Of a stretch of 64,000 bases of DNA, positions 11,315 to 18,633 are shown one piece after another (within the stretch, counting starts at the first letter, position 1; each line of letters opens with the position of its first letter). This DNA comes from Vreelandella nanhaiensis (GTDB taxonomy: Bacteria; Pseudomonadota; Gammaproteobacteria; Pseudomonadales; Halomonadaceae), in contig NZ_RZHF01000006.1 in the NCBI RefSeq assembly GCF_003990185.1, positions 155,027 through 219,026 on the forward strand. The letters run 5' to 3'. A program made the position numbers and the translations under genes. The notes below the pieces were generated by a model. It had not been told where the DNA came from and searched no databases. It was given only the letters and a program-made list of their open reading frames with translations.

Positions 11315-11935
11315 CTACTGTGATATTCGAGCCACTAACACCGCCGCCTGCTGTTTGAGCTCATCGTGAGCCTCTTGAGCGCGGCGTTTTTCTGCTTCGC
11401 TGCCGAGTGAATCAATATTGGCAACCACGTTGAGCAGCACGCTACGCAGCGCCGCAGCGAGCAGCTCACCTCCGGCCTGGGTATCGCTGTTAAACTGGTT
11501 TTCACTATAGGACCCGGCACGCTCACCCAGGTTTAACGCTGCCTGGCAAAGCCGTGCCGTTTGTAGCGGCACGTCCACCGCCGTGGTGGCCGCGGCTTGA
11601 ACCGCGGTGCGCCGGGCCGCTTTCTGTTTATCATTATGCTGGGGCATTTGTAACGCGGCCATCAGCTCTTCAAATGCCGCAACGTCTTTATCCGCCAGCG
11701 GGGCCAACTGGTGCTTTAGGCTTTCGCCCTCCGTGATCAATAAAGCCCGCGCCTCACTCGCCTCATGCTGCTGGCTTAAATGTAGACCTTTGAGTATCAA
11801 CGCCAACCCCATGCTTGCGACCACACTTGAAGCACTGCCACATCCCGGCATCGGCTGGTGGGCAAGCGAGTCGCGAAAGCAGGTAAGGTCTTGTTGCCAT
11901 ATCGGGGCTGAATGCGGTGCTTTAGTGTTTTTCAT
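11315..11935 (-). CDS. cyclodeaminase/cyclohydrolase family protein
   Basis: A 206-residue all-helical protein of the formiminotransferase-cyclodeaminase C-terminal family. Family features are the N-terminal PMPGCGSASSVVASMGLAL and the later VPLQTARLCQAALNL. Relatives act on formimino- or methenyl-tetrahydrofolate. Here it stands alone: no formiminotransferase, histidine-degradation or serine-cycle gene is nearby, so the substrate is uncertain. GGAGTGAG precedes the ATG. It converges on matB and is divergent from the yjf operon. Confidence 0.75.
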   Translation of the reverse strand: MKNTKAPHSAPIWQQDLTCFRDSLAHQPMPGCGSASSVVASMGLALILKGLHLSQQHEASEARALLITEGESLKHQLAPLADKDVAAFEELMAALQMPQHNDKQKAARRTAVQAAATTAVDVPLQTARLCQAALNLGERAGSYSENQFNSDTQAGGELLAAALRSVLLNVVANIDSLGSEAEKRRAQEAHDELKQQAAVLVARISQ

Positions 11936-12307
11936 GAAGGCTCACTCCGTTGATCCTGCTTCCCTGATATCGAACTCATGCTCGCCCAACGGGTCTTATG
12001 GCCGGGCATACCCTGCAATTAACGTCACATTGTGAAGGGCGCTGTCGCTAGTATGGCTTACGCTGGCCCGCTCTGCGTGATGACTATACGCGTTGAGACA
12101 GCATGTATCAGCAAAGCGCGTTAAGGCGGTACGTCGTGGTAGTGTATCTCCTGGGTTATTAAAACCATTACCGAGCGTAGGGTATTTCTCGTTATCTTTT
12201 ATTAAGCGTAGCCCACTGTTTTAAATGGCAATGAGTCGTACTTCGCTAGAAGGTTATTTAGCGTCAGTGCTAAACTAAACTTCACTTTGCATAAGGAGCT
12301 TGCTGCT
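11936..12307. other. divergent intergenic region, no gene seen
   Basis: This stretch separates the cyclodeaminase gene (minus) from yjfI (plus) and must contain promoters for both. The last 130 bases before yjfI are AT-richer than the rest. I looked for a sigma-54 site of the kind driving the E. coli psp operon and found only a poor partial match near 12225. No stem-loop or repeat stands out. Confidence 0.4.
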
Positions 12308-12763
12308 TTGACTACTCCACATGAAACGCGCGCCCTGTCTGCGTCCGAACTTTACCGCATTATTACCGATGCCCCGTCGCAACAGGATACCGACGGCCTT
12401 GAGTGGCCAGACGCCAATGTCAGCCTGGACGAAGCTAACCAGACGCTTATCTGGGAGCTTCACGATTACGGCAATTTAACCCTGACGCTATCCCGTAGCG
12501 ACAACGAGTGGATTGCCATGACCGCCATTACCGCCGTCGAGAGCGTTTCTAACCCGACGGAACTCAACGAGGTTCTGCTGCGCCAGGGGCTGGCGCTCCC
12601 CTTGGCCTCAGTGGGTATTGTGACGATTGATGAGCGCGATTTTTACGTTGCTTACGGGCAGCTGTTTGGTGATTCAAAATTAGCCTCCATCTGTGCCGAA
12701 CTGCATGCAACGGCAAGCGCCGCGATGGAAGTGGCAGGTCTAATTCAAGAACACTTTTCTTAA
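12308..12763 (+). CDS. yjfI: YjfI family protein (DUF2170)
   Basis: A 151-residue acidic soluble protein related to E. coli YjfI (DUF2170). I choose the TTG at 12308 because AAGGAG lies nine bases upstream; an earlier in-frame TTG at 12287 would place that sequence inside the gene. Its function is unknown. It opens an operon that runs YjfI, PspA-like YjfJ, potassium channel, YjfK, YjfL, YjfM and YjfC, the same order as in E. coli apart from the inserted channel. It may regulate or chaperone the PspA homologue encoded next. Confidence 0.78.
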   Translation: MTTPHETRALSASELYRIITDAPSQQDTDGLEWPDANVSLDEANQTLIWELHDYGNLTLTLSRSDNEWIAMTAITAVESVSNPTELNEVLLRQGLALPLASVGIVTIDERDFYVAYGQLFGDSKLASICAELHATASAAMEVAGLIQEHFS

Positions 12764-12786
12764 TACGCTTCTCAGGAGCAACACTT

Positions 12787-13482
12787 ATGCTAAGCAAAAT
12801 CATGACCGCGTTACGCGGTAAAGCCAATGAAACCGGCCAAGCGGTCGTTGATTCACAGGCACTGCGTATTCTGGATCAGGAAATTCGTGATTCCGAGCAT
12901 CACCTTAAACAGTCCAAGACAGAACTGGCGCGCTTGATGGGCCAGCGCCAGCTTAACAGCAATAAAGCCGATACCCTGGAAGGCAAGATCAGCGAGCTTG
13001 AGAAAAGCGCTGAAGCCGCGCTGGATAAAGGCGAAGAAGCCCTCGCCGTGGAAGTCGCTGAGCGCATGGTTGCCATGCAGGACGAACTTGACGCCGAGCG
13101 TAATATTGTCAGCGAATACGATGCCAGCATTGAAAACCTGCGTGGCGCCATTCGCAACACCGAAAACCAGCTGCGCCAGCTCAAGCAGCAGGTAAGCGTG
13201 GTGAAGGCGACGGAATCTGCTCAAAAGGCCCAGTCTGCCGTGGCAGCACGCCATTCCGGGCAAAATAGTGCCATGGGCAGTGCCATGGAGTCTCTTGAGC
13301 GCATTCGTGAGCGCCAGCAGCTCAACTCCGCTCAAATGCAGGCTGCAGAGCAAATGGCAGCCGAAGAGTCCGGTTCTTCCTTGGATGCACGTTTGAAAGC
13401 GGCCGGTATTGGCGCAAACGACCGCAAGGCTGAAGATGTGCTGGCCCGCCTGAAAGCCAAGAAGAACACCCCGCAAGCTTAA
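12787..13482 (+). CDS. yjfJ: PspA/IM30 family protein (YjfJ-like)
   Basis: A 231-residue protein made almost wholly of charged helices with long coiled-coil segments (about residues 20-190), typical of PspA/IM30/Vipp1. These proteins form ESCRT-III-like rods and rings that support damaged membranes. The sequence keeps the family start (LSKIMTALRGKANETGQAVVD) and has a C-terminal extension rich in Ala, Ser and Lys. AGGAGC precedes the ATG. A GC-rich hairpin follows the gene. Its position between YjfI and an ion channel points to a membrane-stress role. Confidence 0.85.
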   Translation: MLSKIMTALRGKANETGQAVVDSQALRILDQEIRDSEHHLKQSKTELARLMGQRQLNSNKADTLEGKISELEKSAEAALDKGEEALAVEVAERMVAMQDELDAERNIVSEYDASIENLRGAIRNTENQLRQLKQQVSVVKATESAQKAQSAVAARHSGQNSAMGSAMESLERIRERQQLNSAQMQAAEQMAAEESGSSLDARLKAAGIGANDRKAEDVLARLKAKKNTPQA

Positions 13483-13492
13483 ATAAAATAGT

Positions 13493-13510
13493 GCCCGCCG
13501 CCCGGCGGGC
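13493..13510 (+). other. GC-rich hairpin between yjfJ and the channel gene
   Basis: GCCCGCCG at 13493-13500 is followed after two bases by its perfect inverted copy CGGCGGGC. There is no T-run, so it is more likely an mRNA stabiliser or partial attenuator inside the operon than a full terminator. It could raise the level of the PspA-like protein relative to the genes behind it. Confidence 0.55.
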
Positions 13511-13530
13511 CTGTTCTCAAGGAGCGAGCA

Positions 13531-14610
13531 GTGCCTATTTTCTTGCGTCTTTTGAAGGCGCTTCAGGCCTCTACCATCAACGTTAGCTGGACCTTTCTGT
13601 TCTTGATGGTGATCGGGCATTCGGCGCTCTCCTGGGCGATCATGTCCTCTGCCGATGAAACGGTGGCTAGCTCCTTCAGGTTGTGGATGTATTTTTATGT
13701 CACCACGACCACCACGGTGGGCTATGGTGACTTTAGCCCTCAAACGCCGCTTGGCCAGTGGGTCGCCACACTTTGGGTAATCCCGGGCGGCATCATCTTG
13801 TTTGCGGCGTTTATCGGCAAGGCAACAGCCAATATCAGTTCAACATGGAGAACGCTGGTGCAGGGAAATGCGAACTACGACGGTCTTACCGGCCATACGC
13901 TCGTTATTGGTTGGCATGGAGAACCTACGGCCAATATCATTCGTATTCTTCAGGCAGACCCTAATCTGCCGGACGATATTGTGCTGTGCGTAGCGGCTGA
14001 TATCGACAATCCCTTGCCCGGCAGTATCAAGTTCGTCAAAGGTGAGAGCTTCTCGGATGCTGAACTGCTAACCCGCGCGGGTATCAAGGGCGCCAGCCGT
14101 ATCATTATCTACGATAAGGTGGATGAGCGCGTAGCAACCATCGCGCTGTCGGTATATGACCAAAAATCCCCGACTTGCCACATGGTCGCGCACTGCGATA
14201 ACCCTTCTACCGCCAGTATGCTGCGCCGCACGCTGCCAGGTATTGAGTGCACCCAGGGGCTTTCCATCGAAATGCTGGTGCGCTCGGCAACCGATGCCGG
14301 AATCAGCCGCGTAGTCAACGAGTTGCTAGCGATTGGCCAGGGCGCTACCCAGTTTCAGGCCTGCTTGCCTGATGCCCTACCAAACGATGAAAGCGTGCGT
14401 TATGGCGACCTGCTGATGCTGGCCAAAGATCACTATAACGTAACGTTACTGGGCGTTTGGCGGCCAGCAAGTGACGAACACCAGCTGTTGAATCCACCCT
14501 CTGATTTCGCCGTGACCAAAGGCGATACTCTTTACTACATGGGTAGCCAGCGGCTGAGTAATGAAGAGCTTATCGGCCTGTTTCAGTCTGCCCTTGGGAG
14601 AGTTACCTGA
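13531..14610 (+). CDS. potassium channel family protein
   Basis: A 359-residue channel. One hydrophobic segment (about 20-38) and a second (about 77-97) flank a selectivity filter TTVGYGD at residues 61-67, the two-helix potassium channel plan. The remaining about 250 residues form cytoplasmic regulatory domains: GLTGHTLVIGWHGEPTA begins a nucleotide-binding-like RCK fold, and the last 80 residues (YGDLLMLAKDHYNVTLLGVW, GDTLYYMGS) resemble a TrkA-C-like domain. The start is GTG after GGAGC. Its stop overlaps the next start (TGATG). This gene is not in the E. coli yjf operon and suggests that membrane potential or potassium flux is part of the system. Confidence 0.85.
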   Translation: MPIFLRLLKALQASTINVSWTFLFLMVIGHSALSWAIMSSADETVASSFRLWMYFYVTTTTTVGYGDFSPQTPLGQWVATLWVIPGGIILFAAFIGKATANISSTWRTLVQGNANYDGLTGHTLVIGWHGEPTANIIRILQADPNLPDDIVLCVAADIDNPLPGSIKFVKGESFSDAELLTRAGIKGASRIIIYDKVDERVATIALSVYDQKSPTCHMVAHCDNPSTASMLRRTLPGIECTQGLSIEMLVRSATDAGISRVVNELLAIGQGATQFQACLPDALPNDESVRYGDLLMLAKDHYNVTLLGVWRPASDEHQLLNPPSDFAVTKGDTLYYMGSQRLSNEELIGLFQSALGRVT

Positions 14611-15329
14611 TGTTCAAGACCTTAAAAAGCCTGTTTGGCAACTCAAATGAAGAAGCCCAGGCACAAAGCACGTCAGCCTTTAGCGCTGGACTGCCCAACG
14701 GGATGTCACAAGAAGATTTCGAAGGTCTACGACTTGATGGGCGTGTCAAAATACAGCTGTCTGAGTTAAGTGCTTTTCCTGATACGCTTTTTGGCTGGGA
14801 TAGTGAGACGTTTCATCACATTGCGGCCGTGGGGCATGTTGACCTGGGCCAGGGTGCTCATCTGGTGCGCTTTTATCTGGATAACGACACCTGGCTGCAG
14901 GCCAATGTCGAAAACCAGCGCGTGATTGAATACAAGCTGTTCGATTTTTATCGCGTCACCCATTTATCGGATGGGGAATTTGATGCACTGATCAACGCAG
15001 ACGACAAGAAATCGGGCCAGTTGGGGGCACAGACCATTACCGTTGAAGCCACTGATGCGAGCGGGCGCGAATGCCAGTATCAGCGCGTATGGGGTGATGA
15101 GGCGAGCCTCTGGTCGCCGCCTGTTTTGCTTGAAGAGCAGGTAATGACTACAGAAAGCGTCATGACCCGCAGCGTTATCCATCACGCCATGCTCTACGAG
15201 CGCGCTATTGGTGGCACTGAGCGTATGGAATACGTGCTGTTAAATGCAGAAAACGACGGCGAAGGCGGTTTCATGCTAGTCCAGAATCTGGGGGTTGATG
15301 TTACCTCCGTGGACATTGATGCTATTTAA
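14610..15329 (+). CDS. yjfK: DUF2491 family protein (YjfK-like)
   Basis: A 239-residue acidic soluble protein related to YjfK (DUF2491). It lacks signal peptide and membrane helices and is predicted to be beta-rich. The function is unknown; the gene occurs in yjf-type operons with PspA-like and ATP-grasp genes. Translation is coupled to the channel gene by a TGATG overlap, so the two proteins are probably made in proportion. Confidence 0.78.
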   Translation: MFKTLKSLFGNSNEEAQAQSTSAFSAGLPNGMSQEDFEGLRLDGRVKIQLSELSAFPDTLFGWDSETFHHIAAVGHVDLGQGAHLVRFYLDNDTWLQANVENQRVIEYKLFDFYRVTHLSDGEFDALINADDKKSGQLGAQTITVEATDASGRECQYQRVWGDEASLWSPPVLLEEQVMTTESVMTRSVIHHAMLYERAIGGTERMEYVLLNAENDGEGGFMLVQNLGVDVTSVDIDAI

Positions 15330-15454
15330 ACGGCGCCAGCCATCTACACTGTTTAACAAGCGTTTCAGGCACGGTTTTACTCACAGGCTCTAGGCAGCGC
15401 TTTAACTACCACATTAACTACAATGTTTATTCTCAACCAAGGAAGACTCCACAC

Positions 15455-15865
15455 ATGCAGTATTTACATGGCCTCCCTCACTTTTTGGGTTATCTGATTG
15501 GCGCGCTGGTACTCCTCGTTGCGTTTATGTACTGCTATAGCAGGATTACGCCCCACCATGAATGGACGCTGATTCGTGAAGGTAACGCAGCGGCCGCCAC
15601 CGCCTATGCAGGTTCGATCTTGGGTTTCACCCTGCCGCTTTACAGCGCCATGGCTAACTCGGTGAGTTTTATCGATTTTATCTTATGGGGCATCATCGCG
15701 TTTGGCGTACAGCTAGTAGCCTTCTTTGGGCTGAAAATGGTGCTGAAAAACCAGGGGGAAAGCCTGTCACTGCACATTACTGAGGGTCATGTGGCGTACG
15801 GTATTCTGGTCGGCAGCGTGTCCATTGCGGTAGGTCTGATTAACGCAGCCTCCATGACGTGGTAA
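15455..15865 (+). CDS. yjfL: DUF350 membrane protein (YjfL-like)
   Basis: A 136-residue integral membrane protein with four hydrophobic helices and short loops, the DUF350 pattern (YAGSILGFTLPLYSAMANS and a terminal GHVAYGILVGSVSIAVGLINAA). Its molecular role is unknown. It sits 125 bases after yjfK, the largest gap in the operon, with GGAAG before the ATG. That gap could hold an internal promoter, but I see no clear terminator. Confidence 0.8.
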   Translation: MQYLHGLPHFLGYLIGALVLLVAFMYCYSRITPHHEWTLIREGNAAAATAYAGSILGFTLPLYSAMANSVSFIDFILWGIIAFGVQLVAFFGLKMVLKNQGESLSLHITEGHVAYGILVGSVSIAVGLINAASMTW

Positions 15866-15876
15866 GGAGTTCATCA

Positions 15877-16491
15877 ATGGCAAATCACGATCAGACACCC
15901 CACCTCCCCCGCCGCAAGCGCAGCGCTCGCCTGTCGCTTGCGATGATGGGGGCTAGTGCCTTCGGTCTTACCGCCTGTGGTCAGCCGGAGCAGACCACTG
16001 ATGTGAGCTTCGACAGCCCGCGCAGCTACCAGAGCGTGGATGAGTGCGTGGCAGCGGATGTCTATACCCGGAGCGCGTGCGAAGAGGCCTACGAAGCATC
16101 CATCAAGGAAGTCCCGCGGTTCAGCACACTTGAAGCCTGTGAAGCGGAACATGGTGAAGGCGCTTGCGTGGCACCCAATGAAGAACAGGCCCAGGCCGCC
16201 ACCGGCAGCAGTAGCGGTAGCTGGTTCATGCCCGCCATGATGGGCTATATGGTGGGCAATATGATGTCGCGTTCAAGCGGCGGCGCCACTTCGCGTGGGC
16301 TCTACCAGGAGCCGGTGTATCGCAACCGTCAGAACCAGGGCAACTGGAACACGGCCACCAATCAGGCAAGCCAGCGTATCAATCAGCGTCAACAGAGCAT
16401 GCGTACCTCGGCGATGCAAAACCGCCAGGCGGCCACTCAGCGCCGCGGCTTCGGTTCACGTTCATCTGCCCGCGGTGGCTGGGGTTCGTGA
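15877..16491 (+). CDS. yjfM: DUF1190 lipoprotein (YjfM-like)
   Basis: A 204-residue protein with a basic N-terminus, a hydrophobic stretch and the lipobox LTAC (C34), so it is probably a lipoprotein. The mature part has a cysteine-containing region (about residues 48-100) resembling DUF1190, then a Gly/Ser segment, and ends in a low-complexity tail rich in Arg, Gln, Asn and Gly. I start at ATG 15877 after AAGGAG rather than at the longer frame. Related YjfM/YgiB proteins are encoded next to ATP-grasp ligases, suggesting that it is a substrate or partner of the following enzyme. Confidence 0.78.
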   Translation: MANHDQTPHLPRRKRSARLSLAMMGASAFGLTACGQPEQTTDVSFDSPRSYQSVDECVAADVYTRSACEEAYEASIKEVPRFSTLEACEAEHGEGACVAPNEEQAQAATGSSSGSWFMPAMMGYMVGNMMSRSSGGATSRGLYQEPVYRNRQNQGNWNTATNQASQRINQRQQSMRTSAMQNRQAATQRRGFGSRSSARGGWGS

Positions 16492-16509
16492 TCAGCCCTG
16501 GATATTCAC

Positions 16510-17676
16510 ATGCTTAGAATCGACGTTGCCGAGCGCCCCAACTGGAAAACCCTGGCTCACGAGCTAGGGTTTCATTTTCATACCATTGAAGGCGAGCCTT
16601 ACTGGAAGGAAAGCGCTTACTATCAGTTTACGCTTGATCAGATTGAACGGGATATCGAGGCGCCCACCGAAGAGCTTCATGAAATGTGCATGGAGCTTGT
16701 TGACCGGGTCTGCCACTCCAATGCGCTGATGCAACGCCTCGCGCTTCCTGAATTCATGTGGGACAGCATTCATGACTCGTGGGTGTCCGGCCAGCCACAC
16801 CTTTACGGGCGCATGGACTTTGCCTATTCAGGCCAGGGTCATGCCAAGCTGCTTGAGCTGAACTACGATACGCCTACCTCGCTTTACGAAGCGGGCTTCT
16901 TTCAGTGGGTATGGCTTGAGCAGGCAATTCAACAAGGCATCATCCCGCGCCATGCCGACCAATATAATTCCATTCAAGAGCGCCTGATCAACGCAATGGC
17001 GCATATCGACGACCGCCTGGATGGCGCCGCGCTCTATTTCTCCTGTATCAAGAATAACCAGGAGGAGCGGGCAACCGTCCACTATTTGCAGGATGTCGCC
17101 GTTCAGGCTGGTTTGAAAGCGCCGTTTATCTATATGGAAGATATCGGTTGTCGCGCGGACAGTGACTATTTTGTCGACCTGGATAATCAGCCGATCAAAG
17201 CGCTGTTTAAGCTCTACCCGTGGGAGGAGCTTGCCGACGATGGCTTTGGCGACAAGATCCCCATTCTTGGTACCCACTGGTTTGAGCCACCTTGGAAGGC
17301 GATCTTGTCCAACAAGGGTATTCTGCCGCTGCTCTGGGAGCACTTTAAAGACCACCCCAACCTGCTTCCGGCCTACTTTGAAGAGCGCAACCCCGCGCCG
17401 CTTACTCCAGGCTGGGTACGCAAGCCCTTCTTTTCGCGCGAAGGCAGTAATATCGAGCTGTTAACGCCGGATGGGCAGCACGAGGCGGTAGACGGCCCCT
17501 ATACCGATAGCCCTTGGATTCATCAGGCCTATCAGCCCATGCCTCGGTTTGGCCAGCACCATGCCCTGATTGGTAGCTGGGTGGTAGGTGATCGTGCATG
17601 CGGTATAGGCGTGCGCGAGGACGTAGGACGGATCACCAAGGACTCCTCCTGCTTTGTGCCTCACGCCATTGTTTAA
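16510..17676 (+). CDS. yjfC: glutathionylspermidine synthase-like ATP-grasp ligase (YjfC)
   Basis: A 388-residue protein matching the C-terminal ATP-grasp synthetase of glutathionylspermidine synthase: KLLELNYDTPTSLYEAGFFQW, KALFKLYPWEELADDGFG, and RKPFFSREGSNIELL with ATP-binding residues. It forms a C-N bond between a carboxylate and an amine at the cost of ATP. The N-terminal CHAP amidase found in full Gsp enzymes is absent, so the product cannot be hydrolysed by the same protein. It closes the operon 18 bases after the lipoprotein gene. The real substrate may be a protein tail, peptide or polyamine; none is proven here. Confidence 0.83.
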   Translation: MLRIDVAERPNWKTLAHELGFHFHTIEGEPYWKESAYYQFTLDQIERDIEAPTEELHEMCMELVDRVCHSNALMQRLALPEFMWDSIHDSWVSGQPHLYGRMDFAYSGQGHAKLLELNYDTPTSLYEAGFFQWVWLEQAIQQGIIPRHADQYNSIQERLINAMAHIDDRLDGAALYFSCIKNNQEERATVHYLQDVAVQAGLKAPFIYMEDIGCRADSDYFVDLDNQPIKALFKLYPWEELADDGFGDKIPILGTHWFEPPWKAILSNKGILPLLWEHFKDHPNLLPAYFEERNPAPLTPGWVRKPFFSREGSNIELLTPDGQHEAVDGPYTDSPWIHQAYQPMPRFGQHHALIGSWVVGDRACGIGVREDVGRITKDSSCFVPHAIV

Positions 17677-17700: not shown

Positions 17701-18633
17701 TTATGCTGCGTCGGCATTTTCGGCGACAAACTGCCCCGGACGTTCAAACAGCTGCTGCATGAAAATGCCATGAGTGACATCTGGTTCATGGCCCGTTGTG
17801 AAGTGACGTGCACCTACCCAATGAAGAGGCGCCCCAAGCGACGTCTCCTCAGGTACGCCATTGGCGGTGAGCTGAAGCAGCACATCGTCGCTCTCGGTAG
17901 GGTGCCAGTGCGTTAATAGCTCAAAGGGTGTTTCTTGAGAGGTTCGCATCGCCAGGATGCCAGTACTGGGCTGCCCATAAAGCTCGATGATCTGGGCAAC
18001 GCCGTTAGCCAGCAACGCTTGATACGTTCGTTTATCCAGCGGGGTAGTCGTGACAGCGATAATATTGGCGGGTAACGATGGCAATCGCCCGGTCAGTTGG
18101 CCCCAGCGATCACTGCTGGTCACCACAATATCTCCCGCATTAAGCTCCCAAAGCGCATTGGCGTGATCAAACAGCGAACGCGTTTTAAAACCTGCTTCCT
18201 GGGGTAATAGCGCGCCTAGCATAAACCCAGATACGGTTTGCAGCGGCAGCCAACTTACCAGCGTACGGTTTGTCATTAGCGGCGAGTCAAATAGCGCCTT
18301 GAGTGCCGTAACTTCTTGGGCCAGCGTCTCGGCCCGGCGCCTATACGAGCGCTGCAACTGATGGTTAAAAGCCCCTGAAGAGACCGTATCGAACACGTTG
18401 AGGTGGCGAATGCAGGCCGCCTCACTCAACGCATTGGCCCACTCCTCCAACGTAATTGACTCATCAGTCAGAAGTGCGCCGTCGGTTAAACCGAAAAAAT
18501 GCTGAACAGCTTGTCTAAGGCCGCTACGCTCGGGTGTACCTGCCGAGGGCAGCATATCGGTATGGGCGGGACAATGGTGCGATGCGATATCACGTAGCAC
18601 ATTTAACAACGTAGTGGGGGTAAGAGATAACAT
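17701..18633 (-). CDS. AMP-dependent ligase-like protein, eroded ATP loop
   Basis: A 310-residue protein aligned by eye with the N-terminal domain of adenylate-forming enzymes: VSWLPLQTVSGFMLGALLP, then AVTTTPLDKRTYQALL, then IIELYGQPSTGILAMR, which corresponds to the ELYGSTETGG motif. Where the ATP loop (TSGSTGxPK) should be, it reads FDTVSSGAFNHQL, so ATP binding is doubtful. The C-terminal domain with the catalytic lysine is also missing. It could be a regulatory or degenerate relative. GAGGAAG precedes the ATG. An AT-rich stretch lies upstream, unlike the surrounding DNA. Confidence 0.5.
   Translation of the reverse strand: MLSLTPTTLLNVLRDIASHHCPAHTDMLPSAGTPERSGLRQAVQHFFGLTDGALLTDESITLEEWANALSEAACIRHLNVFDTVSSGAFNHQLQRSYRRRAETLAQEVTALKALFDSPLMTNRTLVSWLPLQTVSGFMLGALLPQEAGFKTRSLFDHANALWELNAGDIVVTSSDRWGQLTGRLPSLPANIIAVTTTPLDKRTYQALLANGVAQIIELYGQPSTGILAMRTSQETPFELLTHWHPTESDDVLLQLTANGVPEETSLGAPLHWVGARHFTTGHEPDVTHGIFMQQLFERPGQFVAENADAA

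Follow-up and report, generated by a model that had tools for sequence, protein, structure and literature searches.

What does a peptide ligase do in one operon with a PspA membrane-coat protein and a potassium channel? The question is raised by seven genes, all on the + strand, at positions 12308-17676 of a 64,000-nucleotide stretch of the Vreelandella nanhaiensis genome (contig NZ_RZHF01000006.1, positions 155,027 to 219,026; hereafter the window). Except for the channel gene they are named here after their E. coli relatives: yjfI, yjfJ (pspA), yjfK, yjfL, yjfM and yjfC. An earlier note, made from the sequence alone, had placed them as one same-orientation run of PspA, channel, DUF2170, DUF2491, DUF350, lipoprotein and ligase genes, and open reading frames (ORFs) together with Pfam searches bore this out. 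It had also proposed a membrane-stress system that senses ion leakage and attaches an amine or peptide to a cell-envelope target. The answer suggested by our sequence comparisons is that the ligase YjfC may cap the C-terminus of the lipoprotein YjfM with spermidine, the resulting polycationic lipoprotein acting with the PspA coat in envelope stress; we give this model about even chances. The window locus is an ordinary Halomonas/Vreelandella member of an already published operon type. Our additions to the published account are that the channel is accessory, that the DUF1190 C-terminus ends in glycine or serine (G/S) and is poor in D/E, and that the sigma-54 motif is missing 5' of yjfI.

The ligase and its candidate acceptor

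The window YjfC shares 51% identity with E. coli YjfC and 48% with YgiC, and matches the PDB structures of both (7uk8, YgiC, E 4.6e-126; 7uk6, YjfC, E 6.4e-124). Judged by sequence, it is an orthologue of these E. coli peptide-spermidine ligases. RefSeq names both E. coli proteins 'peptide--spermidine ligase', and the available passages of PMC12568646 term the enzymes bacterial peptidylpolyamine synthetases. For the ligase, the earlier note's 'no settled function' therefore now says too much. YjfC covers positions 1-371 of 371 of the GSP_synth profile and has no amidase domain. Residues R101, D103, E116, N118, K305, R310 and N314 are invariant in a 12-row alignment that includes GspS (glutathionylspermidine synthetase/amidase). 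The first four align with GspS R316, D318, E330 and N332 (numbers counted on the aligned row), and we take these GspS residues and the aligned invariant YjfC residues to be ATP/Mg catalytic residues. GspS S335 and S337 are replaced by T121 and T123 in YjfC. GspS acts on glutathione, joining spermidine to its glycine. A spermidine synthase gene is present elsewhere in the source genome (E 3e-51). A natural acceptor of the two E. coli ligases was not found named in the passages of the literature searched.

Since DUF1190 proteins must not be picked by their tails, the survey of candidate acceptors was anchored on the ligase. It took the 80 best query matches among genome contigs, which are not a random sample. 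A same-strand DUF1190 gene lies 5' of the ligase in 76/80 of these loci (73/80 by a stricter distance rule). Together with earlier loci from the G-numbered genomes, some of which were found via DUF1190 itself, and with E. coli, the survey gave 140 DUF1190 sequences, or 130 after removal of copies. A lipobox was found by a simple pattern in 117/130, including the window YjfM, which consists of the lipobox LTAC (GLTAC), an acidic Cys-containing part, an MPAMMGYM segment and an Arg/Ser/Gly tail ending RRGFGSRSSARGGWGS. E. coli YjfM ends in RGGYGRSSSARGHWGG and YgiB in SRSMGG, both finishing in GG.

The end of this tail is strongly conserved. Of the 130 sequences, 128 finish in G or S (terminal pairs GG 75, GS 36, SS 16), and 127/130 tails contain an RGGFG-type box, most often 11 residues from the end. 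Among the last 30 residues D and E account for 0.9%, compared with 9.9% in the remainder, where the figure takes in the unread upstream frame of stop-to-stop ORFs; 103/130 tails contain neither residue. Strictly ligase-anchored tails alone gave the same picture (G/S end 71/73, box 72/73), as did clusters of tails, 59/61 of which have a G/S end. G and S fill position -1 in 98% of sequences, whereas their combined share across positions -30 to -2 is 0.447; among other predicted neighbouring ORFs (>=150 codons, predicted frames), 131/619 end in G or S. The two tails with another last residue are those of L155 and L160, the latter apparently frame-shifted, and three Halomonas loci (L050, L051, L112) have a degenerate box, RRGLGT, yet keep the ...WGS end. 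Ligases of this class require a carboxylate, and almost the only one that the tail offers is at its C-terminus; from this we infer that the YjfM C-terminal carboxylate is the likeliest acceptor of the ligase.

YjfC might instead make a small peptide-polyamine conjugate, a GspS-like redox or storage metabolite, with the DUF1190 tail serving as a polycationic membrane binder and not as substrate. GspS, the characterised relative, does use glutathione, and the RGGFG and G/S tail is possibly a lipid- or protein-binding low-complexity region, being net basic in 79/79 sequences in which both the lipobox and the middle segment were found. We consider this rather unlikely in view of the tight ligase-DUF1190 pairing, which includes 22/80 loci in which the searches found yjfM and yjfC and no other gene of the set, and of the strong conservation at the exact DUF1190 C-terminus. 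Moreover, YgiC is without GspS activity, a result that the available passages of PMC12506659 attribute to Sui 2012.

Several observations nevertheless count against spermidine capping of YjfM. YjfC has no export signal whereas YjfM is exported, so that the timing or topology of the reaction needs explaining. The MPxxxGYM segment does not readily explain a tail on the other side of the membrane: its mean Kyte-Doolittle hydropathy, 0.43 over 19 residues, is too low to make it a clear transmembrane helix. Lipidation is not essential, since the lipobox cysteine is missing from at least five Pseudomonas DUF1190 proteins (L130, L135, L138, L140, L143), which carry a signal peptidase I-like signal. 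The terminal residues vary (GG/GS/SS) whereas GspS uses glycine, and the terminal G/S could alternatively have arisen by low-complexity drift or have a role in export or binding. A same-strand upstream DUF1190 gene is missing from four of the 80 ligase loci: that of L187 lies on the opposite strand, and no DUF1190 match was obtained in L168, L175 and L186, of which L168 and L175 consist of the ligase only. Finally, no modified YjfM was found, either here or in the literature passages.

Three further observations concern DUF1190 proteins. A bitopic YjfM with a cytoplasmic tail was considered from the acidic middle and basic tail (79/79) and was left as only an idea, the segment being too short and weak. 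The five Pseudomonas proteins named above retain the RGGFG box and a Ser-rich end. A contig labelled Bacillus subtilis SK7B5 (L161) holds yjfM-yjfC with a Stenotrophomonas-like tail, probably through contamination or mislabelling.

Conservation and modularity of the gene order

The seven-gene order recurs far beyond chance. It is identical in 26/80 ligase loci, all taken from titled genome records, which supports the earlier note in treating the genes as one cluster, and one more locus (L128) has it with two channel matches; the full order is kept across several Gammaproteobacteria families. Among titled records, the nearest loci are those of Halomonas colorata and Vreelandella species. Other arrangements comprise the six genes without the channel (15), yjfM-yjfC only (22), yjfL-yjfM-yjfC (7) and channel-yjfL-yjfM-yjfC (5). 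A search of 82 genomes of the genus found the channel in 39, DUF1190 in 67 and PspA in 53.

Such modularity could mean that the genes share an envelope-stress regulon but no biochemical pathway, and fall into two separate modules, with the PspA dyad on one side and the ligase and lipoprotein on the other. Consistent with this, the survey contains the yjfM-yjfC and yjfL-yjfM-yjfC loci just listed (22/80 and 7/80) and two loci (L066, L068) with channel-yjfK-yjfL-yjfM-yjfC and no PspA, and 13 DUF1190 loci of the genus have neither PspA nor channel. The 125-bp gap between yjfK and yjfL could house a promoter, and the iModulon that responds in heat-evolved E. coli, where yjfIJKL is strongly up-regulated, is described as yjfIJKL in the available passages of PMC12492005. 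Against it stand the full gene order shared by those several families and the finding that 54/55 PspA rows of the genus lie near DUF1190; the remaining row, from G609, comes from a contig of 3.8 kb. On balance, a shared regulon as the whole explanation appears somewhat unlikely.

Pseudomonas-type operons (L133, L137, L142, L144, L146; also L067 [f42, 231 codons]) have an extra ORF of ~200-235 codons, a predicted frame, between pspA and the channel. The five channel-yjfL-yjfM-yjfC loci (L148, L159, L165, L176, L181; Glaciecola, Vibrio, Veronia) gave no PspA or DUF2491 match.

The potassium channel

We read the leak-sensing proposal of the earlier note as a channel that detects ion leakage and drives PspA and the ligase. 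The protein combines a two-transmembrane-helix (2TM) pore with regulator of K+ conductance (RCK) domains. Its residues 47-339 align to MthK (E 5e-12), and its AlphaFold2 model (predicted local distance difference test (pLDDT) 83.6, predicted template modelling score 0.54) matched the DMI1 gating ring, MthK and GsuK at Z about 15-16. MthK, a Ca2+-gated RCK channel, has the 2TM pore, the TVGYGD filter and both RCK-N and RCK-C in common with the window channel. MthK D184, E210 and E212, presumably its Ca2+ site, correspond to Tyr, His and Asp, and Ca2+ gating is not expected because this set is not kept. MthK D184N/E212Q Ca2+ structures are among the structural matches listed, and the first of the three positions is Asp in many channel relatives. 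RCK channels respond to ligands. As the protein joins a 2TM pore to a ligand-sensing part, it more plausibly conducts K+ upon binding a cytoplasmic ligand than detects leakage.

The position and distribution of the channel speak on both sides. It lies between pspA and yjfK in 27/27 surveyed loci that have all three genes. In the genus it co-occurs with PspA even when unlinked (Fisher p 1e-6; this and the two p values below ignore phylogeny): all 18/18 unlinked channels or remnants are in PspA-operon genomes, and by genome 38 have both, 1 the channel only, 15 PspA only and 28 neither (p 8e-10). At the level of the order, channel and DUF1190 occur together in 19 genomes, the channel only in 10, DUF1190 only in 3 and neither in 162 (p 3e-16); the ligase is nevertheless present in two of the 10 genomes counted as channel-only (G034, G100), and several of the 10 are weak or partial matches.

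PspA operons without the channel are, however, frequent. In the ligase survey the channel is present in 32/80 loci, pspA in 43 and both in 27, leaving 16/43 pspA loci channel-less, and the E. coli yjf cluster is another. The 68 DUF1190 loci of the genus divide into 21 with PspA and an adjacent channel, 18 with PspA and a channel or remnant elsewhere, 15 with PspA and no channel, 13 with neither, and one (G575) with an adjacent channel and no Pfam PspA match, in which a custom profile does find PspA. Owing to this split between linked, relocated and missing (21/18/15), the channel is not an obligatory leak sensor. Conversely, the five channel-yjfL-yjfM-yjfC loci have no pspA, and at least four genomes (G139, G185, G163, G069) have the channel without the ligase, two of them (G185, G163) also without PspA; strict dependence of the channel on the operon is ruled out by the same four. 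With RCK channels responding to ligands, leak sensing that drives PspA and the ligase is improbable, and this part of the earlier proposal is not supported.

Three of the 18 relocated channels (G073, G586, G629) are broken pieces. The channel is dispensable, as G073 keeps its operon while the channel has decayed: the relocated remnant (G073:C1:2413355-2413726, within L043) has internal stops and the six-gene operon (L045) is intact. In the tree, which took in only nine of the relocated genus channels, these nine form a group beside the linked channel of G595 (clade support 88/91, join 100/100), which fits one relocation event; four channels of another family (f8, assigned to Endozoicomonas through the contig common to L154 and G007) likewise form a clade of their own. 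L108, a close relative of the window without the channel, has the same pspA-side junction up to and including the hairpin at the end of pspA (Table 1). The identical hairpin indicates that the loss or gain of the channel probably took place immediately 3' of it. The channel is an accessory cassette that usually, though not always, moves with the system.

A distant RCK channel (26% identity; G058:C40:32909-35533) has a PspA gene about 1.2 kb away, and its genome gave no GSP_synth match; this is perhaps another PspA-channel pairing.

Promoter search and YjfK fold

The sigma-54 consensus was found 5' of yjfI in 1/90 regions (350 bp each), and not in the window, compared with 6/1800 shuffled regions; sigma-54 control as in psp and bac was rejected on this result. 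Upstream of yjfM the pattern occurs in 12/138 regions, above the shuffled yjfI rate, and a rerun gave 12 again. Eight of the 12 are Halomonas loci in which the match, 50-69 bp upstream, falls by position within the 3' end of yjfL; the remaining four matches lie at 223-307 bp. We judge the excess to be probably a coding coincidence. A loose first scan of the window gave 324 matches versus 372 expected, hence no enrichment. The seven genes include no pspF, pspB or pspC; no genome-wide search was made for these.

Comparison of the AlphaFold2 model of YjfK (DUF2491; pLDDT 85.9) with solved structures gave no confident relative (best Foldseek E 0.027, best VIA-align Z 3.5), and rows for START/Bet v1 and CYTH-like folds at Z about 3 were not used. 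Comparison with DUF4178 of the sister operon gave an hhalign probability of 0.4% (one sequence only) and no link. No hydrophobic signal-like N-terminus was seen in the translation, judged by eye, and the reading of YjfK as an 'outer-membrane porin' (PMC12492005) is unsupported by that N-terminus; in the available passages of the same source, neither predictor confirmed a membrane location.

Gene layout

All seven Pfam family calls (Table 1) exceed their curated cut-offs. The gaps between the genes are, in order, 23, 48, -1, 125, 11 and 18 bp, that between yjfK and yjfL being the sole long one, and both flanking genes are on the - strand. The TTG start of yjfI is preceded by AAGGAG at 12293-12298, with an alternative in-frame TTG at 12287. 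YjfI matches the NCBIfam BacA model partially and under its cut-off. The CesT/Tir fold has been assigned to the DUF2170 family (PMC11237479), and the available passages of PMC10948618 report a CesT/Tir-like crystal structure for BacA, the DUF2170 protein of the P. aeruginosa bac operon. The window pspA is the only PspA-family match in the 4.03-Mb source genome. A TrkA_N Pfam match of the channel (0.0032) is under its cut-off.

Table 1 Features of the yjf locus and its flanks in the window.
Feature	Position	Strand	Description
flanking gene	11315-11935	-	FTCD_C / methenyltetrahydrofolate cyclohydrolase-like protein, just 5' of the cluster; under NCBIfam cut-off
yjfI	12308-12763	+	DUF2170, CesT/Tir-like chaperone-fold protein; Pfam PF09938 3.6e-21
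yjfJ/pspA	12787-13482	+	PspA/IM30 membrane-coat protein; PF04012 PspA_IM30 1.1e-42
GC hairpin	13493-13510		pspA-channel gap, 3' of pspA
potassium channel	13531-14610	+	GTG start; 2TM, TTVGYGD filter, RCK-N and RCK-C; PF07885 Ion_trans_2 4.6e-11
yjfK	14610-15329	+	DUF2491, beta-rich; PF10679 5.7e-29; overlaps the channel stop by 1 bp
yjfL	15455-15865	+	DUF350 inner-membrane protein (location per RefSeq name of E. coli YjfL); PF03994 2.4e-39
yjfM	15877-16491	+	DUF1190 lipoprotein, proposed ligase substrate; PF06693 2.6e-29
yjfC	16510-17676	+	GSP_synth ATP-grasp ligase, 388 aa; PF03738 1e-146
flanking gene	17701-18633	-	no Pfam match; weak match to NCBIfam 4-coumarate-CoA ligase model (74 of 335 bits)

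Proposed mechanism

In the model that we favour, YjfC would act on YjfM before its export or while it is under way: at the expense of ATP it would activate the carboxylate at the C-terminal end of the tail and link it to spermidine, as GspS does with glutathione through its glycine. Carried to the envelope by its signal peptide and lipobox, YjfM may there bind anionic lipid or lipopolysaccharide with its basic tail and the added charges. YjfJ (PspA) and its chaperone-like partner YjfI would coat the stressed inner membrane, with YjfL and YjfK possibly serving the PspA membrane complex. Where present, the channel could release or admit K+ when its RCK domain binds some cytoplasmic ligand, tuning turgor or membrane potential in the same stress. 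The wider claim, that YjfC and YgiC are dedicated C-terminal spermidinylases of YjfM and YgiB, giving a polyamine-tipped lipoprotein alongside the PspA coat and, in some lineages, an accessory RCK-gated K+ channel, is put forward tentatively, at slightly less than an even chance.

Of the earlier inference, what concerns the envelope and the ligation of an amine is plausible and has partial support in the literature. A membrane-stress role agrees with the PspA-based envelope system of Ravi et al. 2024 (PMC11237479) and with the heat-evolved E. coli strains. That an amine is attached agrees with the RefSeq name of the ligase, and the envelope target, taken here to be the C-terminal tail, fits the tail statistics and would follow from them by inference only. 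A ligase that caps the C-terminus of a neighbouring lipoprotein with spermidine was not found stated in the literature searched, which did not cover Pederick et al. 2023, and we do not claim that the idea is unpublished. The available passages of PMC12270671 describe in vitro conjugation of spermidine to ubiquitin-like proteins; for the joining of spermidine to a protein this is a precedent, though a distant one.

The conserved, acid-poor G/S end on a neighbouring protein makes C-terminal spermidine tipping of lipoproteins directly and cheaply testable. If true, it would tie polyamines to PspA envelope defence. The optional channel shifts the question from leak sensing to the identity of the channel's ligand and to the reason for its presence in some lineages only.

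Comparison with known systems

GspS belongs to the same ATP-grasp family as YjfC at 27% identity, and its amidase domain is missing in YjfC. The canonical psp system relies on sigma-54 and PspF, and the sigma-54 promoter before a PspA operon was not found here. The P. aeruginosa operon bacABCDEF likewise opens with DUF2170 and PspA genes; a sigma-54 promoter has been proposed before bacA, whereas no such motif was found in the window, and the ligase of the present operon is unreported for bac in the available passages of PMC10948618.

The architecture itself, K+ channel included, has been described by Ravi et al. 2024 (PMC11237479) as a third operon group with CesT/Tir-PspA, ATP-grasp ligase, K+ channel, DUF350, DUF1190 and DUF2491 (e.g. 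AMJ95269.1, AMJ95273.1). Every component is also in the window, which has both the DUF2170-PspA dyad and the ligase, DUF350, DUF1190, DUF2491 and channel in one run. Nothing essential differs, and the operon section of that work is silent on gain or loss of the channel within a genus and on the DUF1190 C-terminus. The E. coli ygiBC pair consists of a DUF1190 protein and ligase only. As the earlier note had stated, the order and families of the window recur in E. coli K-12 as yjfI-J-K-L-M-C without the channel, with a nearly identical YjfM tail.

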